Source of the DNA: Nitrospirota bacterium
GTDB lineage: Bacteria > Nitrospirota > Nitrospiria > Nitrospirales > UBA8639
NCBI GenBank assembly: GCA_027623995.1
Contig: JAQBUF010000026.1
Coordinates: 1 to 43,261, forward strand
Reading direction: 5' to 3'
DNA length: 43,261 nucleotides
In this document: piece after piece, positions 25,323 through 43,187 of the stretch
How positions within the stretch are numbered: position 1 is the stretch's first letter
Layout of the letters: every line of letters starts with the position of its first letter
Notes under the pieces: generated by a model
What the model saw: the letters and a program-made list of their open reading frames with translations, nothing else
Databases searched by the model: none
What the model was told of the DNA's origin: nothing
Translations under genes and position numbers: made by a program

Positions 25323-25640
25323 GGGCCTGTTGAATATTTCATATTCAGGACCCATCAATGCTCGGGATAAGAAGACCAGTGTCAGTGAGAGGAAATGTTC
25401 AAAAAAGTTCGTCCAGCAAGGCCGCAGCCATTTCTTTTGTCGCTGCACCATCTCATCGTGCCCTTTTCTGGCGCATCCATTGCCACTGCCGCCTGGAAGA
25501 AGCAGCATGAGATGCTGCACCTACAGGAAATACTTTTCGCGATACGAACCCGAGGTACACATCATGCCTACAAAGAATACCGAGGGCTTGTCAGCCGTAG
25601 CCTTGGCGAAGGCTGGAGGATTTTTTCAACATTTCCAGAA
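25323..25640 (-). repeat. Dispersed repeat, copy A (inverted)
   Basis: Reverse-oriented copy of the element also seen at 29824-30132 and 34582-34884. Its inner arms read AACATTTCC and GGAAATGTT, with poly-T/poly-A next to them (near 25395-25411 and 25621-25637). The interior is closely similar to copy B throughout, for example around GGCGGCAGTGGCAATGGATG on the minus strand. Frames inside it do not stay in register between copies A and B, so it is treated as non-coding. Confidence 0.85.
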
Positions 25641-25701
25641 GTGAATACTATTGGTAGCGCTATACACTTAAACTGGGGCTTGGTAAAGGAATCGGATGAT
25701 T

Positions 25702-26019
25702 CTATTCTAAGCGAGAGGAATGAAGAGGAAATGATGGTTGCCCGGAAATGATTCGCAATAAATCGGCTTTCTTGTGGGAAGGAATCTTGTCCGTGGTGTC
25801 GGAGGTTTCATACAGCGCAATGGTTAAGGATCGATCATCACAGTCGGTAATCGTAAAACCTCTGCGGTGAAGGTAGCCTGCGACGTCCCGCATGCGTGCA
25901 ACCCCTTCGCTATATTGGCAAAACACGCAATCCAGGACATCGAATTCTTCGTGTCGCGCCCGTTTAGACGCATGCCAAAACGCTAACCGATAACTAGAGA
26001 TCCTGAGGAGGCGAGTCAT
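25702..26019 (-). CDS. Hypothetical small protein
   Basis: A possible 105-residue protein that I do not recognise. The middle reads EFDVLDCVFCQYSEGVARM and YLHRRGFTITDCDDRSLTI, a reasonable mix of helix and strand with a CxxC. There is no membrane segment and no clear ribosome site before the ATG at 26019. It starts 17 nt after the stop of another small frame at 26037-26228, which suggests a pair. Coding status is uncertain. Confidence 0.45.
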   Translation of the reverse strand: MTRLLRISSYRLAFWHASKRARHEEFDVLDCVFCQYSEGVARMRDVAGYLHRRGFTITDCDDRSLTIALYETSDTTDKIPSHKKADLLRIISGQPSFPLHSSRLE

Positions 26020-26036
26020 GAGTGTAAAGATAACGC

Positions 26037-26228
26037 TTAGCGGTGCTTAAGCCAAGGGGTAAAATCTTCTAAGCCTGGAGGAAATCCTGCCTCCCAAGAA
26101 CCACGCCGCTTCCCGCCTGAACCCACTGGACAAAACCAAAATCCCTCATCCGTTTTGGCCACTTTCCAGCGGCTACCATCTTGGTTGATCCATAGCCACA
26201 TGCGTCTGGCGATTCGAGTGTTGCTCAT
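26037..26228 (-). CDS. Hypothetical 63-residue basic Trp-rich protein
   Basis: The product is basic, with five Trp in 63 residues: MSNTRIARRMWLWINQDGSR followed by a Gly-rich part and ending WLKHR. The composition looks protein-like, but there is no ribosome site and no family is recognised. It lies just upstream of the hypothetical frame at 25702-26019 and divergent from the TraB-family gene. Confidence 0.4.
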   Translation of the reverse strand: MSNTRIARRMWLWINQDGSRWKVAKTDEGFWFCPVGSGGKRRGSWEAGFPPGLEDFTPWLKHR

Positions 26229-26351
26229 GGAGGTTCGGGGAAATCACAAATTCGTGGTGGTCGATTTTGTTGCGAGCCATTGTAGCATGATGGGGTGCGG
26301 ATGTCTGTGCCTTTCTTGACAAGAAAGCCCTTTTTTGTGAAAGGTGTGTCT

Positions 26352-27578
26352 ATGGAATCATCTGAGTCCCCGGAGTTAAAAACTACATCCAAAGTAACGC
26401 CTCCCAGCGTCAGATCTTCTCCTGATGTGCATGTGCTGACCGTTCGCAATAAGACCATTGTCTTGGTCGGAACGGTCCATGTTTCGCAGGAGTCGGCAGA
26501 TTTGGTGCGGGATGTCATTGAAGAAGAGCAGCCGGATGGCGTGTGTGTAGAGCTAGACATTCGACGTTTTGAAGCACTTTCCCAAAAACATAAATGGGAG
26601 TCATTGGATCTTAAGGAAATTATTCGAAAAAAACAGCTCAGTACCTTGTTGGCCAACCTGCTACTCGCGTCCTACCAAAAACGTCTCGGAGATCAGTTGG
26701 GTGTCATGCCTGGCACGGAAATGCTCGAAGCCATCACCATCTCGAAAAAACATGACATCCCCATTTTTCTTTGTGACCGTGATGTGCGTGTGACTATGCG
26801 TCGCGCCTGGCGCTCTACACCATTTTTCAAAAAAAGCATGCTGGTCTCGTCGCTCATGCTGAGCGTGTTTGATACAGAGCCGGTGACGGAAGAGTCCTTA
26901 TCGAATCTGAAGAAGCAGGACGTGTTGTCGGAGATGATGAAGGAACTCGGCGCAGAAGTGCCTACCCTCAAACAGGTATTGATTGACGAGCGTGACCAAT
27001 ATTTAGCGGAGAAAATTCTCCAATCCGATGGGGAGAAAGTCGTGGCGGTGGTTGGTGCTGGTCATGTTGAGGGGATGAAAGCCGTCTTGCAGCAAACGCA
27101 GCGAACGGATCTGACCCCCTTGGATATCATTCCTCCCGTGTCGCCTGTCTGGAAATGGGTGGGGTGGAGTATTCCTCTACTTATCGTAGGCTCCATTGCA
27201 TGGATTGGTTACGACAAAGGTTTGGCCGCGGCAGGGGAAAATGCGATGTTTTGGATTCTGGCCAATGGAATCCCCAGTGGTATTGGCGCTATACTCGCAC
27301 TTGGGCATCCCCTGACCATCTTGGCCGCATTTGTCGGTGCCCCAATTACTAGTCTGACCCCCGTGATTGGCGTCGGCTACGTGACGGCGTTTATCCAAGC
27401 CTATATGCAGCCACCGATGGTGCGGGAGTTCCAGTCCGTGGCCGAAGACATTGCCATTCCCCGGCAATGGTGGAAAAGCCGACTCCTCAGAGTTTTTCTT
27501 GCCTTTTTATTGCCGACCATCGGAAGCGTTATTGGCACGTGGGTGGGCGGAACCAGAATCGTCTCTAATTTATTCTAA
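26352..27578 (+). CDS. TraB/PrgY-family membrane protein
   Basis: A 408-residue protein. The N-terminal TraB domain has IVLVGTVHVSQESADLV, then EEQPDGVCVELDIRRFEAL, LGVMPGTEMLEAI and VVAVVGAGHVEGM. The conserved GTxH, E and GxxH residues resemble a Tiki/ChaN-type metalloprotease core. The C-terminal third holds three or four membrane helices (near PLLIVGSIAWIGY and ILANGIPSGIGAILALGHP). TraB/PrgY was named for shutdown of peptide pheromone in Enterococcus; in other bacteria the substrate is unknown. I start at the ATG at 26352 because AAAGG lies about 8 nt upstream; a GTG at 26295 would add 19 poorly conserved residues. An inverted repeat follows immediately. Confidence 0.88.
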   Translation: MESSESPELKTTSKVTPPSVRSSPDVHVLTVRNKTIVLVGTVHVSQESADLVRDVIEEEQPDGVCVELDIRRFEALSQKHKWESLDLKEIIRKKQLSTLLANLLLASYQKRLGDQLGVMPGTEMLEAITISKKHDIPIFLCDRDVRVTMRRAWRSTPFFKKSMLVSSLMLSVFDTEPVTEESLSNLKKQDVLSEMMKELGAEVPTLKQVLIDERDQYLAEKILQSDGEKVVAVVGAGHVEGMKAVLQQTQRTDLTPLDIIPPVSPVWKWVGWSIPLLIVGSIAWIGYDKGLAAAGENAMFWILANGIPSGIGAILALGHPLTILAAFVGAPITSLTPVIGVGYVTAFIQAYMQPPMVREFQSVAEDIAIPRQWWKSRLLRVFLAFLLPTIGSVIGTWVGGTRIVSNLF

Positions 27579-27580
27579 AA

Positions 27581-27778
27581 AGACGTGAAGCGTGATCCGT
27601 GAGGCATAAAGCGTGGGGAGGTCTTACTCCTTCACTTATTATGCATCGAGCATTACGACCCAGGTTTTTCTGGGAAACCAATTAGAACGTCTTGTTGTGA
27701 AAGGATTCGGAAGGGGTGAGGGGGTGGGAATGGTCTTATTTGTTACGCTTCACGTTTCACGCATGACGCTTCACGTCT
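27581..27778. repeat. Long inverted repeat of ACGTGAAGCGT-type units
   Basis: AGACGTGAAGCGTGATCCGT (from 27581) and an imperfect inverted copy ending near 27778 enclose about 130 nt. Units of ACGTGAAGCG/TCACGCTTCACG are repeated within the arms. It begins 3 nt after the TraB-family stop and overlaps the end of the convergent zinc-ribbon gene, so it may act as a two-way terminator. This unit type is a common extragenic repeat in many bacteria. Confidence 0.65.
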
Positions 27779-27947
27779 CTTCCCGCTTCGAGGTATGTTG
27801 AAAAATACAGGCTGGACATGTGTAATGAATAAAGCGGTCTTCACCGACCAAGCGCTTTTGCATGTTAATCTTGCACCAAGCGCATTGCCGGTCAGGGAGT
27901 TCGGATTCTGGCATGGATGGGAGTGCTTCGGATGACGATGTTTCCAT
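27771..27947 (-). CDS. Small zinc-ribbon-like protein
   Basis: A product of 58 residues from the ATG at 27947, or 84 from a GTG at 28025. Two Cys pairs, CAWC and CPAC, are about 25 residues apart around INMQKRLVGEDRFIHYT, a zinc-ribbon layout. No family name is recognised. The C-terminus (SKREET and stop) runs into the ACGTGAAGCG repeat, which supplies the TGA. The longer start would end 15 nt from the ATG of the SIMPL gene on the other strand. Function unknown; a metal-stabilised fold is the only safe inference. Confidence 0.55.
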   Translation of the reverse strand: METSSSEALPSMPESELPDRQCAWCKINMQKRLVGEDRFIHYTCPACIFQHTSKREET

Positions 27948-28040
27948 AACGGCATTCTCGTAAAGCGAGGCCGTGGTTGTCAACGAAGGAAATGCGTCAA
28001 CATCACTCCCGTCAGTCCTCTTCACACCAAAGGAGATATT

Positions 28041-28805
28041 ATGAAAATTCTTGCCATAGTTTTGATAGGGATGTTGTCCTCAAGTGTGGCTTGGGCTGAT
28101 GAGGAGCACGTTGACCCTTCGACGCTGACGGTTTCTGCGCGAGGATCAATTCAGTTATCGCCCGATACGGCCATTGTGAATTTTTCCGTAGAAACTGCTG
28201 GTGAAACATTTGAACAAGTTGTGGGCGACAATCGTGATCGTATGCAACGGGTGATGAACGCGCTTCTTGGTCTGGGTATTCCCGAAGAGCGCATTCAAAC
28301 CACCTCATTCGATGTCACACCGAAATACGCGCTACCACCACGCCGACGACCAGACCAGCCCATTATACATGAACCACCCAAGATCCTTGGGTATACCGCG
28401 AAAAATGGGTTGAAGGTAGAAGTTCGAGATTTAGAAAAAGTGGGGGCCGTGGCCGACCGGGCATTAAAAGCAGGTGCGAATCATTTTAATGGCATTCAAT
28501 GGATCGTACGCGATCAACATCCAGTATATCTCCAAGCCTTAGCTCAAGCCGCGAGAAAAGCCAAAGAAAAGGCACGGATATTGGCACAGGCCTTAGATGT
28601 TCAGCTGGTGGAATTACTGACGGTCCAAGAAGGTGGGTCACATGTTCCCGCGCCCCGGCGTTCATTTGCCAAAGCGAATATGCTCATGGCAGATGGTGCT
28701 GCGGAATCTTCTGTTCCCATGTCGCCTGGAGAACTTGAGGTCGAAGCGCAGGTTTCGTTGTTGTATGAAATTGGGCCAAGTGCAGGAATGACGGATATTC
28801 CGTAA
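28041..28805 (+). CDS. SIMPL (DUF541) domain periplasmic protein
   Basis: A 254-residue protein. The signal peptide is MKILAIVLIGMLSSSVAWA. The SIMPL/DUF541 fold follows: LTVSARGSIQLSPDTAIVNF, then RVMNALLGLGIPEERIQTTS, YTAKNGLKVEVRDLEKVG and GIQWIVRDQHPVYLQALAQA with KAKEKARILAQAL. These are the recurrent blocks of the family (YggE-like), whose role is poorly defined but linked to oxidative or envelope stress. AAAGGAGA lies 6 nt before the ATG, a good ribosome site. The CobW-type gene follows after 69 nt on the same strand. Confidence 0.93.
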   Translation: MKILAIVLIGMLSSSVAWADEEHVDPSTLTVSARGSIQLSPDTAIVNFSVETAGETFEQVVGDNRDRMQRVMNALLGLGIPEERIQTTSFDVTPKYALPPRRRPDQPIIHEPPKILGYTAKNGLKVEVRDLEKVGAVADRALKAGANHFNGIQWIVRDQHPVYLQALAQAARKAKEKARILAQALDVQLVELLTVQEGGSHVPAPRRSFAKANMLMADGAAESSVPMSPGELEVEAQVSLLYEIGPSAGMTDIP

Positions 28806-28874
28806 TCTCTTCAAGGTCATCCCTTTGGGTATTCAAAAATCGAGATTCAAAATTAGGCAACCGATTGTTTTTAT

Positions 28875-29792
28875 ATGAACAACCAATCAACGACTCCTCC
28901 ATCAACCGGCATTCCTGCACTCGTGATTTCAGGGTTTTTGGGTGCAGGCAAAACGACTCTCGTGCAACATCTGCTCAAAGATGCTCAGCGCCAAGGTCTG
29001 CGATTAGCGGTGGTGTCGAATGAATTTGGTGCTCTTGGGATTGACCAAGCGCTACTCGGCACACAAGGCTCGAATAGTTATGTGGAACTCGAAGGAGGGT
29101 GTGTCTGTTGTAAATTGTCTGATGAATTGGTGAACACGTTACAACAACTATGGGAAGACGTGCGACCCGATCGCATTCTCGTAGAAACGTCAGGTGTGGC
29201 CCTTCCCTTCGACACACTCATCAACTTTTGGCGAGAGCCTGTGTCCGATTGGGTCAATGAAAGCATTGCCGTCGTGGTGGTCAATGCCGAACAAGTGGCA
29301 GAAGGTCGAGATCTTGAGGGAACCTTCGAACAACAGGTGTCCTCGGCGGATTTATTAATTCTCAATAAAATTGATCTTATTTCTGCTGATACAATCGAAG
29401 AAGTTGAAAAGCAGTTGGCGATCATGGCTCCAGGCACGCCGATCATTGGTGCCACGAATGCGAGCGTAGCCGCCGAAGTGTTTTTTACCCCAGATCCTCA
29501 GTTGAAAGCGAAGCGGCACCCCAAAGCCCATGAACCTCATACCCATGAAATGTTTGAATCCGAAGAAATCAACATTCCATCGGGAGTCGATCCCGACACC
29601 ATCATTCAGCAAGTCCAATCCCATCAAGCTCTCCGTGCCAAGGGATTCGTCCACACCTCACAAGGCCTTCGGCTGCTTCAGGGCGTGGGCTCTCGCATAG
29701 ATTTAATCGAGCCTGCGGTCATTCCCCCCGACGAACTTCTTGGTCGCATCGTCGTCATTCGGCGAAGCAAAAAACCTGACACCACACACTAG
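28875..29792 (+). CDS. CobW/P47K-family GTPase, possible metal chaperone
   Basis: A 305-residue G3E-family GTPase. The P-loop is GFLGAGKTT (near residue 19). The metal-binding motif GGCVCCKL lies near residue 74, and the base-specificity motif NKIDL near 163. The CobW C-terminal domain follows, with a His-rich stretch HPKAHEPHTHE near 215 ahead of it. Family members deliver zinc or other metals to target enzymes, as in YjiA and ZNG1; CobW itself works in cobalamin synthesis. No cobalamin genes are nearby, so a zinc or general metal role is more likely, by inference. The ATG has no clear ribosome site. Confidence 0.92.
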   Translation: MNNQSTTPPSTGIPALVISGFLGAGKTTLVQHLLKDAQRQGLRLAVVSNEFGALGIDQALLGTQGSNSYVELEGGCVCCKLSDELVNTLQQLWEDVRPDRILVETSGVALPFDTLINFWREPVSDWVNESIAVVVVNAEQVAEGRDLEGTFEQQVSSADLLILNKIDLISADTIEEVEKQLAIMAPGTPIIGATNASVAAEVFFTPDPQLKAKRHPKAHEPHTHEMFESEEINIPSGVDPDTIIQQVQSHQALRAKGFVHTSQGLRLLQGVGSRIDLIEPAVIPPDELLGRIVVIRRSKKPDTTH

Positions 29793-29823
29793 CTTTTCCT
29801 CGCTTCACGTTGCCTCTTATTTG

Positions 29824-30132
29824 ATGGGAATGTTGAAAAAAGCCGCCAGTCTTGGCCAAGGCTACGGCTGACAAACCCTCGGTATTCTTTGTGGACATGA
29901 AGCGTGGACCTCGGGTTCGTATCGCGAAAAGTATTTCCTGTAGCTGCAAGCATCTCATGCTGCCTTTTCCAGGCGGCAGTGGCAATGGATGCGCTCGAAG
30001 AGGGCACGATGAGATTGTGCAGCGACAATAGAAATTCTGCGGTTTTGCTGGATGAACTTTTTTGAACATTTCTTCGCACTGATGCTGGTCGTCTTATCTG
30101 GAGCATCTATGGGTCTTGGGCCTTAAATATTC
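29824..30132 (+). repeat. Dispersed repeat, copy B
   Basis: Starts ATGGGAATGTTGAAAAAAGC and has the inverted inner arm TTTTTTGAACATTTC at about 30056-30070. It ends with the CACTGATGCTGG block and the terminal GGCCC. The interior matches copy A closely. It fills most of the 424-nt gap between the CobW-type gene and the HEAT gene, so no gene is called there. Confidence 0.88.
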
Positions 30133-30216
30133 CACAGGCCCTTAATCGTAATCTCAATACGAGCGTTGAGGAGAGTTTTAGTTTTTCCTTCGTTCCTTGC
30201 CAGGATTCCTTTCTCG

Positions 30217-31098
30217 TTATTGTTCCATGCCAATTTTTCGAATGGTTTCTTGTGCGGCATGCTGGACATTTGGGTCCTGATCGGTTTCCGCGATCTGCGA
30301 AAGTCTTGGAACAAAAGACTTATCACCGATATTGCCTAATACCTGCACGGCCACTGTTCGTTCTTCTGGTGTTGCGACTTTCGTTAATTCCCACAAGGTT
30401 TCTTGCGCTTGAGGATCGTTGAGTTTTCCAATTTCTCGGATGGCGTTCATTCGTGCGCCCCTTCGTACAAAGGCTTCTCCCGGTTGCTCGTAAGGCTCTT
30501 CATAGCTGGGGTTTGTGTAGGGACGACGCACCATATGCATGAGGACCTCGCTGGCATGTGTTTGGTTTGTGACCCATGCTTTCAGAATCTGGGTCTGATA
30601 AAAAAACAGCGGGTCTCCTTCCAGGTTGCCAATGACATCCCAATACACACTACCGGCTGGCACTTCACTGGGTTGCCCCACGAATTTGTTTGCCATGATG
30701 ATGCCGACCTTTGGATGGTAGACCGCCGTATGGAAGGTCACCACCGTCCCTTGTTCTAACCTACGGAACGTTCCACTGGGCGTTTCGGCATAGTCAATGA
30801 CCAGCAGGGCATCATGGGCTTCTTGAGGGTCGAAGACCACCTGAAATCCGACGTCTTCCAACCTTCCCTTCAATTTGGAGATGGGATCATACAGCGGGTA
30901 TTCATAGTCTAACCAGGTGGCGACTTTCCCACCAAGCAGAATCGTGTGGATGGCCTTGAGAGCCTCTCGTTCAGGTGCGGTGTATGATGTTTTGACTTCT
31001 TGAGTGGCCTGCCCCTGTGAAAAATCTGGGAAACTCAGACCAATAAAGCCTGTGACAAGCACAGTGAACGCCAGACGATGCATGGATTGATTTCCCAT
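30217..31098 (-). CDS. Exported HEAT-repeat protein
   Basis: A 293-residue protein. The signal peptide covers about residues 1-30 (to SQGQA). Residues about 40-190 form a domain I do not recognise, with KVATWLDYEYPLYDPISKL and GTFRRLEQGTVVTFHTAVYH. The C-terminal 90 residues are HEAT-type helical repeats (AIREIGKLNDPQAQETLWEL, AVQVLGNIGDKSFVPRLSQI). The repeats suggest a protein-binding surface in the periplasm. The start at 31098 has GGGAGG 13 nt upstream; a Met five residues later lacks a site. Repeat copy B lies downstream. Confidence 0.85.
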   Translation of the reverse strand: MGNQSMHRLAFTVLVTGFIGLSFPDFSQGQATQEVKTSYTAPEREALKAIHTILLGGKVATWLDYEYPLYDPISKLKGRLEDVGFQVVFDPQEAHDALLVIDYAETPSGTFRRLEQGTVVTFHTAVYHPKVGIIMANKFVGQPSEVPAGSVYWDVIGNLEGDPLFFYQTQILKAWVTNQTHASEVLMHMVRRPYTNPSYEEPYEQPGEAFVRRGARMNAIREIGKLNDPQAQETLWELTKVATPEERTVAVQVLGNIGDKSFVPRLSQIAETDQDPNVQHAAQETIRKIGMEQ

Positions 31099-31152
31099 GG
31101 GATTATCGTGTCCTCCCTTGGTTGCAGATGAATCCAGTGGCCAGTGGTGGTG

Positions 31153-31183
31153 ATCATCATCATCATCATCATCTCATCATCAT
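31153..31183. repeat. ATC/CAT triplet repeat
   Basis: A run of seven consecutive ATC units interrupted once by CTC, then three more CAT units. It lies in the 113-nt gap between the pentapeptide-repeat gene and the HEAT gene on the minus strand. A simple-sequence tract of this kind can change length by slippage. Confidence 0.7.
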
Positions 31184-31211
31184 AGGCGACCGGCCTATTG
31201 GGTAGCGAGGG

Positions 31212-31865
31212 TTACGGTTTGCTCAGAAGGCTGGAAAAATTTTGTTCGATATGACCTTTGATTGATGGATCCAGTTGAGCTTGGTGTAGTGTTTTCGCTT
31301 TTCCCAATAATTCCATGGAGAGATTTTTTGCGCCTTGGAGATTCGTGCGTTCAAAGATGGTGCCGGTGAGGGAGGCTTCTTGGAGATTGGCCAGAGAGAG
31401 GTCGGCGTCTGTGAGGTCAGCTTCGCGGAGGTCGACCATTTTTAAATTGGCTTCCGAGAGGTTGCATCCCCGTAGTATCCCCCAAGGTAAGGCGGTGCGT
31501 GTCATGTTAGCTTTGGAGAGATTGGCGCCTGTGAGGTCGGCACGGACCATGCCGGTACTGGATAAATCGGCCATCACGAGCGTGGCGTTGCTCAGCACCG
31601 CTTTGATGAGGTTGGCTTCGATGATATCAGCTTCCGTGAGATTGGCGTCGGTGAGGTTGGCTTCTTCGAGATTGGCTCGTAGCAGATAGGCATCGGAGAG
31701 GTCGGTCCCGGTAAAGTTCACTTTGGTGAAGTCCATTCGAGTGAAGTCATACCCAGACAGGTCAGCGCCGCTGAGATCTGGTCGCACGTCTGGTTGCGTT
31801 CGCCGAAATTTATTCCAGACTTCTAATCCTTGAAGCACGAGATCAAGATGTTCTTGGTTGGCCAT
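31212..31865 (-). CDS. Pentapeptide-repeat protein
   Basis: A 217-residue protein from the ATG at 31865 (MANQEHLDLVLQGLEVWNKF). Residues about 30-175 are a long run of A(D/N)LXX pentapeptides, such as ADLSG, ANLEE, ANLTD and ADIIE, which fold as a right-handed quadrilateral beta-helix. Upstream sequence in the same frame overlaps hflC on the same strand and is not part of the gene. Members of the family include DNA-mimic gyrase protectors, but most have no assigned role and no specific target can be read here. A hairpin separates it from hflC. Confidence 0.88.
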   Translation of the reverse strand: MANQEHLDLVLQGLEVWNKFRRTQPDVRPDLSGADLSGYDFTRMDFTKVNFTGTDLSDAYLLRANLEEANLTDANLTEADIIEANLIKAVLSNATLVMADLSSTGMVRADLTGANLSKANMTRTALPWGILRGCNLSEANLKMVDLREADLTDADLSLANLQEASLTGTIFERTNLQGAKNLSMELLGKAKTLHQAQLDPSIKGHIEQNFSSLLSKP

Positions 31866-31909
31866 AGTGCTGTTGTAACGCGGAGGGAGACTCTGAGGCA
31901 AGGTGAGGA

Positions 31910-31942
31910 TAGCCGACAGGGAGCGTGACTGCCTGTCGGCTA
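31910..31942 (-). terminator. Strong hairpin after hflC
   Basis: TAGCCGACAGG / CCTGTCGGCTA, an 11-bp perfect stem with an 11-nt loop, starts 12 nt beyond the hflC stop. No T-run follows on the minus strand, so it is a partial or rho-assisted terminator between hflC and the pentapeptide gene. Confidence 0.55.
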
Positions 31943-31953
31943 AAAGTCCGTGG

Positions 31954-32811
31954 CTATTGTTTTTTGAGGAATCGTAAGAACTCCGAATCAGGAGTGAGGA
32001 CCATGGTCGTGTCTTTGGCAAACACTTTTTTATAGGCTTCCATGGATCGGATGAACTCGAAAAATTGCGGATCTTGTCGATACGCATCGGCGTAAATCTT
32101 AAAGGCTTTGGCTTCGCCTTCACCGCGAATTTCCTGTGAAGTTTTATAGGCCTCGGCAAGAATAATTTCACGATCTTTTTCAGCTTCTGATCGAATCTTC
32201 TGAGCTTCTTCCGCGCCTTCGGCTTTGTATTGCTTGGCGATCCGTTCACGTTCCGCCTGCATCCGATCAAACACCGCTTTAGCATTTTGCTCTGGCAAGT
32301 CCGCTCGTTTGATGCGGACGTCGGAGATGATTAAGCCATATTGGTTGGCTTTTTCATTGGCGCGCTTGGCTACTTCAGACATGATCAATAATCGATTGGC
32401 GGAGACAATTTCGTGCAGGTCATGTCGTCCCAGTTCTACGCGAAGTTCGGAGTAGATGATGTCGTCTAACCGCTGCAACGCCCCTCGTTGGGTTTGGAAT
32501 GATTTGTAGACTTGCAATGGGTCGACGATTTTCCATTTGGCATAATTGTCGATCAAGATGGTCTTTTTGTCCTGAGTGATGACTTCGCGAGCCGGGACGT
32601 CATAGTCCAACAGTCGCTTGTCAAAATAGGTGACTTCTTCAAGAAATGGAATCTTCCATTTTAACCCAGGTTCAGTAATCGTTCGCTGAGGGGCGCCCAA
32701 CTTCACGACAATCGCTGTTTGCGTGAGATCCAGAACAAAAAACGGTGAAGCCCCCATCATGATGAGGAGAACGATGACCCCGAATATGCCGAGAATAAGA
32801 TTTTGTTTCAT
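31954..32811 (-). CDS. hflC: HflC, SPFH-domain regulator of FtsH
   Basis: A 285-residue stomatin/prohibitin-family membrane protein. The N-terminal helix (about residues 4-24) is followed by the SPFH domain with VKLGAPQRTITEPGLKWKIP and a long charged coiled-coil (about 175-245: KRADLPEQNAKAVFDRMQAE and EGEAKAFKIYADAY). HflC with HflK forms a large periplasmic cage around the FtsH protease and limits its access to membrane substrates. Its ATG overlaps the last base of the hflK stop (TAATG), so the two are translationally coupled. The length is normal for the family. Confidence 0.96.
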   Translation of the reverse strand: MKQNLILGIFGVIVLLIMMGASPFFVLDLTQTAIVVKLGAPQRTITEPGLKWKIPFLEEVTYFDKRLLDYDVPAREVITQDKKTILIDNYAKWKIVDPLQVYKSFQTQRGALQRLDDIIYSELRVELGRHDLHEIVSANRLLIMSEVAKRANEKANQYGLIISDVRIKRADLPEQNAKAVFDRMQAERERIAKQYKAEGAEEAQKIRSEAEKDREIILAEAYKTSQEIRGEGEAKAFKIYADAYRQDPQFFEFIRSMEAYKKVFAKDTTMVLTPDSEFLRFLKKQ

Positions 32812-33848
32812 TATTGCGCCACCTGTGAATTGTTGTTCGACCTTCTATTTAAACGATCTAATGGTAAGTATTGCATCACATTGCCCGCAGCTTTGGAGTC
32901 GATAATAATTTTATCCACGTTGGAGAGCACTTCTTCCATCGTTTCGATGTAGACTCGTTTGCCGATGACGGCTTTGCCTTTTTTGTATTCTTCTAAGGTT
33001 TGCAAGAAGTGATTGGCTTCACCTTCTGCCCGCGCTAGCCGAGATTGGGCAAACCCCTTGGCTTTGTTGATATCTTCAGCGGCTTGGCCTTTGGCCTTCG
33101 GAATAATATCGTTTTGATAGCCTTTGGCTTGGTTGATCAACTGCTCACGTTCTTCTTTGGCGCTGGCCACATCTTTAAAGAACTTGGCCACTTTCTGGGG
33201 GGGATTGACGTCCAAGAGCTGAACCGTGGCAATTTGGGTCCCGCTTTTATAGTCATCCACGATGGTTTGCAAAAGGTCTTGCGTGGATTGTTGGATGCCT
33301 GCTTTCCCGACGGTGAGCGCTTCGTCAATTTTGTTTTTCCCAATGACTTCTCGCATGGCGGCTTCTGCTGATTTGCGAATGGTTTCTTCCACATCCGCGA
33401 CATTAAAGAGGTAATCTTTGGCGTTATTGATTTTGTATTGAACGATGAATTCCAAGGAAATAATATTCATGTCTCCTGTGAGCATGAGGGCTTCCTGAGG
33501 GACGATTTGAGTGCGGCCTCGATCATTCGTGCGAAATCCAACTTCTAGGCGGTGAAGTTTTTCGACCTTGGGGGTGACCACGGTTTCAATAAATGGAATT
33601 TTGAGATGTGGCCCTGAGCCCACGGTACGAACCACGTCACCAAATCGCTTGACAAGCCCTTCTTCATCGGGTTCTACCTTGAACACGGATTGTGACAATA
33701 GTAAGGCTGCCGCAACGAGCAAAATAATGGTTTTCATACCCTTGGTGGGCTTCATGTGTTGCCATTGCTCTTTGGCTTTTTTGAGGACATCGTCTAAGGG
33801 GTCTGAACCGCCTTGTTGCCCCCATGGATCTTTAGGTTCCCATGACAT
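32811..33848 (-). CDS. hflK: HflK, SPFH-domain regulator of FtsH
   Basis: A 345-residue partner of HflC. A Gly/Pro/Asp-rich N-terminus (MSWEPKDPWGQQGGSDP) precedes one membrane helix at about residues 41-61. The SPFH domain follows with VKRFGDVVRTVGSGPHLKIP. The coiled-coil is at about 225-300, with KGFAQSRLARAEGEANHFLQ. The cytoplasmic N-terminal layout is that of HflK rather than HflC. GGAG lies about 9 nt before the ATG. It is the first gene of the hflK-hflC operon and is divergent from the pseudouridine synthase gene. Confidence 0.96.
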   Translation of the reverse strand: MSWEPKDPWGQQGGSDPLDDVLKKAKEQWQHMKPTKGMKTIILLVAAALLLSQSVFKVEPDEEGLVKRFGDVVRTVGSGPHLKIPFIETVVTPKVEKLHRLEVGFRTNDRGRTQIVPQEALMLTGDMNIISLEFIVQYKINNAKDYLFNVADVEETIRKSAEAAMREVIGKNKIDEALTVGKAGIQQSTQDLLQTIVDDYKSGTQIATVQLLDVNPPQKVAKFFKDVASAKEEREQLINQAKGYQNDIIPKAKGQAAEDINKAKGFAQSRLARAEGEANHFLQTLEEYKKGKAVIGKRVYIETMEEVLSNVDKIIIDSKAAGNVMQYLPLDRLNRRSNNNSQVAQ

Positions 33849-34018
33849 TTATGACTCCGTTGTGGGTTTGGGTACTAGTGCTAGTGCGTAAGTAATTGAA
33901 CGTCACGGTAACAGAAAAAATGAGTCTGGGCAACTTGTACTCTGACGATCTTCATGAAAGCTTAGGGAATTTTGGTGGCCATGCGACAGTTGGTGAGAGC
34001 GAGAGGAAAGGCGTATTG

Positions 34019-34594
34019 ATGGTGGCGAAATGTACGGTGATCTTGAATAAACCCTATGGCGTGTTGTCATGCTTCACGGATGCTCAACAGCGTGCCACCT
34101 TGGCTGATTACATTTCGATTCCTGATGTGTATTCAGCCGGACGCTTGGATCAAGACAGTGAGGGGCTCTTAATACTCACGGCAGATGGCGGGTTGGCTCA
34201 TCGGTTAACTGATCCGGCGTTTAAGCTTCCCAAAGTCTATCTTGTTCAGGTTGAGCATGTGCCTGATCTCCAGGCCCTAGAACAACTTCGAACTGGTGTC
34301 ATGGTCCGAGGTCGCACCACTCGTCCAGCAAAGATCCGCTTGCTGAGCGAGGCTCCTCCACTATGGGAGCGATCGGTTCCCATTCGATTTCGAAAATCCG
34401 TGCCCACCTCGTGGCTAGAGATCATCATTTCGGAAGGCATGAATCGACAAATTCGCCGTATGACTGCGGCCGTTGGGTATCCGACCTTGCGAGTCGTTCG
34501 CACCGCCATTGGAGGGCTTAAGCTTGGGATGTTGTTGCCAGGTGAATATCGAACCGTGACCAATACGGAACTCAAAAAATTATGGGAATGTTGA
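34019..34594 (+). CDS. rluE: RluE-like 23S rRNA pseudouridine synthase
   Basis: A 191-residue RsuA/RluB/E/F-type synthase. The family blocks are LNKPYGVLSCFTD, the catalytic AGRLDQDSEGLLIL (Asp near residue 42), KVYLVQVEHVP, SVPTSWLEIIISEGMNRQIR and RRMTAAVGYPTLRVVR. These match E. coli RluE, which modifies U2457 of 23S rRNA; there is no S4 domain, as in RluE. I start at the ATG at 34019, with AAAGG about 8 nt upstream. The last three codons and the TGA lie inside dispersed-repeat copy C, so the C-terminal WEC was created by that insertion. Confidence 0.9.
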   Translation: MVAKCTVILNKPYGVLSCFTDAQQRATLADYISIPDVYSAGRLDQDSEGLLILTADGGLAHRLTDPAFKLPKVYLVQVEHVPDLQALEQLRTGVMVRGRTTRPAKIRLLSEAPPLWERSVPIRFRKSVPTSWLEIIISEGMNRQIRRMTAAVGYPTLRVVRTAIGGLKLGMLLPGEYRTVTNTELKKLWEC

Positions 34595-34884
34595 AAAAAG
34601 CCGCCAGCTGTGTTCCCTGGCTTTGCCGAAATGGCTCGCACAGGCACAGTCGCCCTTTTTGCCTGACCTTCGGGCTCACAGACTTGCCGCTCTTCGCGGC
34701 GTTCGCGCTCACGTACTGGGAGTACGCTTCGCGCGTCAAAAGGGCTGCGGCCTTGCTGGACCTGCCTTCGCCGAAGCGGCTTCGCGCAGGCAGGCGAACT
34801 TTTTTGAACATTCCCTCTCACTGATGCTGGCCGTCTGTTCTGGAGCATTTATGGGTCCTCGACATGAAATATTCAATAGGCCCA
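34582..34884 (+). repeat. Dispersed repeat, copy C (different interior)
   Basis: Shares the left end ATGGGAATGTTGAAAAAAGC, the inner inverted arm TTTTTTGAACATTCCC near 34800-34815, the CACTGATGCTGG block and a right end near AATAGGCCC with copies A and B. The interior (about 34608-34770) is unrelated to A and B, and it has its own hairpins, for example CGTACTGGGAGTACG near 34712. The repeat is thus modular. It overlaps the stop of the rluE-like gene. Confidence 0.85.
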
Positions 34885-42620: not shown

Positions 42621-43187
42621 TCAAGTTCCAAGTGCAACGGGTGAATGATGACGCAGGTTCGTAAACACCTCCAGTGGGGTTGCCCAGTCCAGACATTTTC
42701 TTGGTCGGGTGTTCAACCGCTGGGCAATGGCATTCAGTGCTCGCTGCGTATAGGGCGACAAGTCCGTGCCCTTGGGGAGGGACTGGCGGAGCAGGCCATT
42801 GGTATTTTCATTCGTCCCCCGTTGCCATGGGCTATGCCGATCGGCAAAGAACACCTGGATGGCTAGGCGCTGGGCCAGCTGCTCATGTTCCGCCATCTCT
42901 TTGCCTCGATCATAGGTCAACGTTTTCCTCAGCGCGGCGGGGATGCGTCGGAGCTTCTTGGTCAATCCGTCGCACGCACTCTGCGCATCCGTTCCCTCCA
43001 GCCGCGCCAAGAGCACCAGGCGCGAGGTCCGCTCGAGCAAGGTCTCGACGGCCGAGCCATGGCGAGCCCCTTTGATGAGGTCGCCTTCCCAGTGCCCCGG
43101 GACGGTGCGCGTGGCGACGTCGGCGGGACGCTCGGCCAGGAGGGTCATGTTGGGGATCTGCCCACGTCGATCCGTTGGCCCTGTCAA
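42621..43187 (-). pseudogene. IS30-family transposase, N-terminally truncated
   Basis: The frame encodes the IS30 catalytic domain: GHWEGDLIKGARHGSAVETL (first Asp), LTYDRGKEMAEH (second Asp) and RGTNENTNGLLRQ (Glu), then LNTRPRKCLDWATPLEVF and the usual HSPVALGT end. It lacks the helix-turn-helix N-terminus of about 150 residues. Similarity begins at TDRRGQIPNM near 43180; beyond that the frame stays open to the window edge but reads unlike IS30. The stop lies within the probable terminal inverted repeat (about 42610-42637, GGCGGTTTCAAGTTCC), as usual for this family. The element is likely broken by a second insertion or rearrangement at about 43180. Confidence 0.85.

Follow-up and report, generated by a model that had tools for sequence, protein, structure and literature searches.

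Short Gene-Free Mobile Elements With a Conserved Hairpin and Variable Cores in the Order Nitrospirales

Modular miniature inverted-repeat transposable elements (MITEs), and BOX above all, are the closest known kind to a repeat that we describe here from contig JAQBUF010000026.1 of Nitrospirota bacterium assembly GCA_027623995.1 (43,261 nucleotides, the whole of which is referred to below as the window), where three copies, designated A, B and C, lie within positions 25323-34883. As presented in PMC3049150, BOX of S. pneumoniae and S. suis is a modular, MITE-like element with fixed end modules, optional inner modules and a fold in which its ends pair, and in S. suis one inner module occurs between two different end pairs. 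This likeness, drawn from that source, is one of architecture alone. Compared with BOX as portrayed there, the Nitrospirales repeat places distinct palindromes as inner modules at several fixed sites, carries an invariant mismatch and has a tail of near-fixed length without a conserved fold, and its change of ends goes together with changes in duplication length and in the matching transposase across bacterial families. The Tn3-derived TIMEs, as described in PMC4133298, resemble the repeat in their 5-bp AT-rich duplications, their lack of a transposase gene and their mosaic derivatives; they carry 38-bp Tn3 repeats, however, whereas the ends here comprise ~12-16 bp of different sequence with no Tn3 transposase in the window's own genus, and the pairing of 38-bp Tn3 ends with a Tn3 transposase that marks TIMEs was not found. 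The GTAG and CGTC families of repetitive extragenic palindromes (REPs), as PMC3733652 depicts them, place small palindromes inside larger palindromic repeats, as does our repeat with its CCTTCGnnnnnnCTCAGG module; the likeness is by placement alone, and the CCTTCGnnnnnnCTCAGG module differs in having set positions within a transposon core and in occurring in other repeat families.

The literature searched (titles and the starts of abstracts, with most subscription journals outside coverage) contained no paper describing this repeat. MITEs of the IS5 family are a further known kind, and a version of the repeat in another family of the order (f3) has ends and a YTAR duplication in common with an IS5-family element; the version in the window's family (f1), in contrast, has other ends and 5-bp duplications. 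The family is set apart from known MITEs by its order-wide core, by having two types of ends that go with different duplications, by its invariant mismatch and by its gain of modules. Judged by sequence, the repeats may be classed as MITEs, with an autonomous partner indicated for the f3 version alone. Our reading, to which we assign a probability of about 0.8, is that they form a MITE-like non-autonomous family with a conserved hairpin, whose cores are exchanged and whose transposase is supplied in trans.

Copies, ends and target duplications

All three copies reported in a preliminary description of the window are present, with slightly shifted limits. Copies A (25323-25636, minus strand, 314 bp, flanked by CTTCT / TTCTT) and B (29826-30141, plus strand, 316 bp, flanked by TTGAT / TTAAT) have a core of the type that we call block2 and a common interior (B vs. 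A, 87%), while the interior of copy C (34584-34883, plus strand, 300 bp, flanked by ATTAT / ATAAT) differs and consists of the base hairpin plus modules H1, H2b and H4. The inner inverted repeat, the tail block CACTGATGCTGG and the terminal GGCCC described earlier were all recovered; the right end of copy B had been set 9 bp too early. Each element runs from a left end, GGGNNTGTTGAAAAAA, through the hairpin core to an inner right arm that mirrors the left end and can pair with it, and from there through an unstructured tail of near-fixed length to the outer right end, and GGGNNTGTTGAA stands at both outer ends as the terminal inverted repeats of a MITE. In B, the left terminal repeat, GGGAATGTTGAAAAAA, occupies 29826-29841 (plus strand), the inner right arm 30057-30073 (plus), and the tail 30074-30141 (plus), closing with the outer right terminal repeat at 30127-30141; the inner right arms of A and C lie at 25391-25407 (minus) and 34799-34815 (plus), and the outer right terminal repeat of C at 34869-34883 (plus).

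The preliminary description had held that finding just these three copies would speak against a mobile family; we found the opposite, with dozens of copies in the window's genome. Searches of this genome (G000; 3.13 Mb in 110 contigs, with the 40 best candidates of each similarity search scored) returned 70 matching stretches for B, 40 for the tail of B and 55 for C, and the end motif GGGNNTGTTGAA matched 135 times genome-wide, compared with 7 for a reversed control pattern. Within 238 kb of own-genome DNA, chosen for resemblance to B, C or the tail of B, or for matches to the end motif, and therefore not an unbiased sample, we identified 62 left ends and 49 delimited copies, a count that includes three doubtful rows (C25_22979, C72_1658 and C100_58271, fragments or misread). 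These copies are 158-353 bp long and lack a transposase gene, in keeping with the size and copy number of MITEs. Among them, perfect 5-bp duplications flank 27 of 49, compared with a mean of 0.84 and a maximum of 5 under random pairing of flanks, and 5 was the only flank-match length to be strongly enriched. The pattern was seen again in G019, a single-contig genome from another genus of the window's family, in which 29 of 44 copies have perfect 5-bp flanks (shuffled mean, 0.78; no element was recovered at three of 47 loci, and several were traced starting at their right end). The target duplications anticipated earlier are thus present, although those of the window copies themselves are imperfect, with 2/5 positions agreeing in A, 4/5 in B and 4/5 in C. 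Since the duplication brackets the whole unit, the tail is part of the element. Many copies, exact ends, 5-bp duplications and the lack of a transposase gene bear out the earlier suggestion of a non-autonomous mobile element, and the repeats are a large family of short, gene-free mobile elements of the order Nitrospirales. Integron cassettes and IS200/IS605-type ends, both early ideas, were dropped on seeing the constant 5-bp duplication.

Two unusual forms were also noted. At locus L105 (G000:C49:16400-18800, 1211-1241), two outer right ends lie in tandem, 16 bp apart, with no core between them, and L147 (G019:C1:16134-16220) is an 87-bp version without the hairpin that nonetheless has a perfect 5-bp duplication.

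The duplications also bear on two explanations that we regard as very improbable. Several contigs of the 110-contig draft end within copies, and mosaic cores might accordingly be artefacts of assembly; wrong joins, however, would break the agreement between left and right duplications, which holds in 27/49, and the single-contig G019 shows the same independence of core and tail. The other explanation is that these are REPs or bacterial interspersed mosaic elements (BIMEs) moved by REP-associated tyrosine transposases (RAYTs, Y1). To our knowledge, REPs have not been described to make target duplications, and exact terminal repeats with a constant 5-bp duplication stand against such an origin; the lack of duplication and the association with RAYTs that characterize REPs and BIMEs were not seen. 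The genome does have four Y1_Tnp genes, but the mini-palindrome, block2 and the left end were absent from the stretches around these four and around two Y1 genes of G002, and RAYT genes were accordingly set aside as a source of the modules after the sought motifs were missing around all six. Block2 does resemble GTAG-tagged REPs as shown in PMC3733652. A REP/BIME origin of the whole element is largely refuted, with block2 and the mini-palindromes as a possible exception.

The hairpin, its mismatch and the tail

We aligned 39 of 43 cores, taken from named contigs and from three families of the order, f1, f3 and f4 (L023, L198, L204 and L208 were omitted), and observed covariation at 25 of 45 base pairs, with 168 cells changed on both sides and none of 500 shuffles as high. 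The named structure paired 90% of cells, compared with at most 48% for every slid version, a percentage biased towards the named structure because that structure was derived from one aligned row; further pair types did not exceed shuffles (187/500). Folded as RNA, a base copy gave z = -6.5, and copies A and C gave -2.2 and -3.0, respectively; B folded as DNA was unremarkable (z = -1.3), and no known structured RNA from Rfam matched in the window at gathering thresholds. Coding selection in the cores, named earlier as a possible refutation, was not what emerged: the covariation points to selection or correction acting on base pairing.

In the outer stem, a G.G mismatch is present in 39/39 aligned rows, though neighbouring pairs covary; among own copies, 44/46 have it. 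The G form at this base is common to the left end, the outer right end and the f3 insertion sequence, and the inner arm carries the other, non-pairing form, which led us to the idea of a mismatch lock that may bar the inner arm from serving as an end. The same mismatch bears on a competing account of the covariation, in which compensatory changes reflect template-switch correction of an imperfect palindrome at replication and not selection on folded RNA or DNA. Template switching has been proposed to create and maintain RNA hairpins (PMC8794818), and the fast core change in close pairs described below fits a local mutational process; such correction should, however, also repair the G.G mismatch, which is kept in all aligned rows and nearly all own copies, and we think it somewhat improbable.

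The tail behaves differently from the core, with a mean divergence of 33% vs. 7% (eight copies omitted). Its length from the inner arm is 84-86 bp in 40/46 own copies and 86 bp in 32/37 copies of G019, and it showed no conserved fold (alifold -7.9, compared with -8.5 after column shuffling, in 41 of 46 tails of 82-88 bp).

A hairpin of this kind could also be a bidirectional transcription terminator that was adopted by the host and spread through the genome. The left arm on the minus strand does read as a GC hairpin followed by six T, and none of the 49 copies falls within an open reading frame (ORF) by a simple ORF caller; against this, we saw no convergent excess and no other orientation preference among neighbouring genes (7 convergent, 23 tandem and 11 divergent, vs. 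a background of 21/48/21), and a terminator scan gave one site in C, one in A and none in B, and for the stretch no clear surplus above shuffled sequence (15 vs. 12.0, sd 3.9). We consider this explanation quite unlikely. The stop codon of one ORF (33896-34594, pseudouridine-synthase-like by eye) lies inside the left end of copy C.

Core modules and core-tail ancestry

The shortest cores, of ~105 bp, are bare hairpins; other cores also hold palindromes of about 20-45 nt, modules with fixed positions that we named H1 to H7. In C, these are H1 (34616-34649), H2b (34660-34698) and H4 (34761-34794, a module also present outside these elements), all on the plus strand. The GTAG-type palindromic block2 occupies 25439-25526 (minus) in the core of A and 29939-30029 (plus) in that of B, and further block2 copies in the genome lie outside these elements. 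The palindrome CCTTCGnnnnnnCTCAGG, which occurs in H3 and H7, has 35 occurrences in the genome (control, 0); from our reading of the loci, copies outside the elements lie mostly within other dispersed repeats, mainly the GTAG-type block2 hairpin and a GTTTGAGT...GACTCCGCGAGTT family. Within the 238 kb of own-genome DNA, H1, H2 and H3 in its commonest exact form were seen in the elements alone. Five of seven module sites fall at hairpin bulges, which is not significant (p = 0.07).

Several loci were recorded alongside these modules. The GTTTGAGT...GACTCCGCGAGTT dispersed repeats, with their internal CCTTCGnnnnnnCTCAGG mini-palindrome, were seen at L172, L176, L177, L178, L181 and others, and L104 (G000:C59:10000-12000, 411-1274) is a tandem array of seven GTAG-type block2 copies spaced 130-142 bp apart, in units of ~135 bp. 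At L146 (G019:C1:1893521-1894951), the core of a copy is interrupted by an IS110-family transposase gene, apparently within a mini-palindrome, and at L033 (G000:C6, 1637-1715, minus) a group II intron end (Rfam RF00029) lies directly beside a partial element copy.

It had been suggested that the family swaps its core. Much of what appeared to be a different interior proved to be stepwise gain of modules at fixed sites and not replacement of whole cores; swapping itself is supported by near-identical tails with different cores, by the 27% divergence between the tails of A and B despite their common core, and by core divergence that does not track that of the tail. The tails nearest to that of A belong to copies with H1 and H2b or with no module, and the nearest to that of B to a copy without a module. 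C75 (no module) and C17 (two modules) have identical tails over the compared columns, and for nine of 21 pairs of modules all four combinations were observed (three block2-type copies omitted). These combinations of core and tail do not follow one tree.

Divergence was compared among own copies (excluding block2-type copies and two others) and in G019 (37 of 46 loci retained). Own cores are 4.0% apart where tails are 2.5% apart, reaching a plateau of 8-9% where tails differ by 35-44% (8.8% at 44%); in G019, cores are 7.0% apart where tails are 3.3% apart, 7-8% up to 30% tail divergence and 15-17% beyond. The greater divergence of core than tail in close pairs means that the core is not simply slower, and the pattern fits pooled core exchange or fast constrained change of the hairpin, and not simple slow core evolution. 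When we asked how often a copy and its nearest neighbour by tail agree in core type, the result was 7/41 in own copies (4.4 expected, p = 0.18), 7/26 in own copies with perfect duplications alone (3.9 expected, p = 0.11) and 22/37 in G019 (18.5 expected, p = 0.31).

These data can be set against the view that this is a MITE of the usual sort, without core exchange and with a hairpin that evolves slowly under selection, in which core differences are no more than module gains along descent. In favour of that view, conservation of the hairpin across families is clear, a constrained core would be expected to level off while divergence is still low, and each of the three tests put the association of core and tail a little above the shuffled mean. 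Close pairs that differ more in core than in tail in both genomes, the identical tails of C75 and C17 with zero and two modules, and the nine module pairs in all four combinations all argue against it, and we consider it unlikely.

The f3 version, the helper transposase and the proposed mechanism

Of 146 genomes sampled from the order, 100 contained the core left-arm pattern, as did 15 of 29 genera, and its control gave 0 throughout. Within the window's family, elements of genera g5 and g9 have GGG(GC, TC or others)TGTTGAAAAA at one end and CAACACTCCC or a near variant of it at the other, with 5-bp duplications. In f3, the same core lies between CAGGATGC(G/T)GAAAAA and TTTTTCCGCA(G/A)CCTG ends (CAGG...CCTG), such that one core is found with two types of ends and duplications in two families. 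Only a flank length of 4 (YTAR) was enriched in f3, with 15 of 25 perfect vs. 7.2 shuffled, counts that keep at least four of 25 rows (L205, L206, L209 and L217) delimited at the inner arm by a loose right-end pattern; the shuffled value is high because CTAG is common, and flank matches other than CTAG were TTAG/TTAG, ATAG/ATAG and CTAA/CTAA. Three f3 insertion sequences of 1316-1317 bp (in G065 and G121) have CAGGCTGCGGAAAAA at both ends and TTAG or CTAG duplications, and their transposase (363 aa in G121) belongs to the IS5 family (NCBIfam NF033581; Pfam DUF772 and DDE_Tnp_1), with ISAzs10 as a named relative (63%). IS5 elements of this group duplicate YTAR. The f3 version alone thus has the ends and the duplication of an IS5-family element, as an IS5-derived MITE should. 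At L214 (G065:C1:2773274-2774589), the insertion-sequence frame is shortened to 342 aa from an internal GTG, compared with 363 aa in the two G121 copies.

Named contigs holding an exact part of the f1 element included those of the Nitrospirales metagenome-assembled genomes (MAGs) OFTM76 and OFTM334, and plasmid and phage collections gave no match to the base element. The repeat was also seen on short contigs (L120, L122, L123, L124, L125 and L126) of MAGs named Alphaproteobacteria, Nitrospinota, Nitrosomonas and Planctomycetota; these contigs are probably wrongly binned.

The parental transposase predicted earlier was therefore found for the f3 sister version and, among the matches listed, not in the window's genome. 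Fetched unpaired f1 ends in the own genome were all short copies or isolated motifs. A 1431-bp end pair in G019, considered as an autonomous element, turned out to be a copy whose core holds an IS110-family transposase, and L121, considered as a longer element, has an ORF of 559 aa that by eye resembles no transposase. The f1 end motif was in none of 18 fetched Tn3 loci, and none of the DDE_Tnp_1 elements at 11 loci in six genomes had f1 ends; one such locus, L119, does resemble f1 at its end, GTAGGGCTTGCTGAAAAAAGC, yet lacks a 5-bp duplication. An ORF at the contig end in the window (42621-43187, minus) is IS30-type transposase-like, judged by eye. The perfect duplications suggest that a matching f1 transposase existed not long ago, and this helper may have been lost, may lie in an unlisted part of the genome or may be of a family outside the search.

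We propose that a DDE-type transposase acting in trans would attach the element to new sites by its left and outer right ends, with a duplication of 5 bp in f1 and of 4-bp YTAR in f3 as the result. The f3 elements would be moved by the f3 IS5-family transposase and the f1 elements would have been moved by a transposase whose existence we infer, and cores would be exchanged between copies by recombination or template switching. The ends appear to have changed in different branches of the order, probably to suit different transposases. Several results weigh against parts of this proposal. Among the 100 of 135 matches listed for the own genome, no pair of f1 ends 0.4-4 kb apart encloses a transposase; in a GGGNNTGTTGAANAA search of ten relatives, the sole longer pair among the matches listed was an IS110 insertion; and Tn3 was rejected as the helper, with PF01526 absent in the own genus and present in 9 of 48 genomes of the family. 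In addition, one own copy, C75, is an exception to the mismatch, with A at that base, and in L203 (f3) the inner-arm version of the base stands at the outer right end, yet CTAG is found on both sides, which speaks against the mismatch as a strict lock. The neighbour tests amount to a lack of association and are weak evidence, and the more distant tails of G019 go with more distant cores, so exchange is not free.

More tentatively, and with limited confidence, we suggest that the persistent replicator, or the structure useful to the host, may be the hairpin and not the ends: on this view, the core would have been kept across the order while its ends, of the 5-bp and 4-bp types, were refitted to different transposases, the invariant mismatch would hold structural arm and cutting end apart, and smaller mobile hairpins, an IS110 element and a group II intron would use the core as a landing pad. 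If this is true, the hairpin would have outlived its transposases. With copies numbering in the dozens in a genome, and with the repeat present in about two thirds of the genomes sampled from the order, the family offers a countable case in which selection on the inner structure of MITEs, recombination of their cores and change of their helper transposases may be tested.

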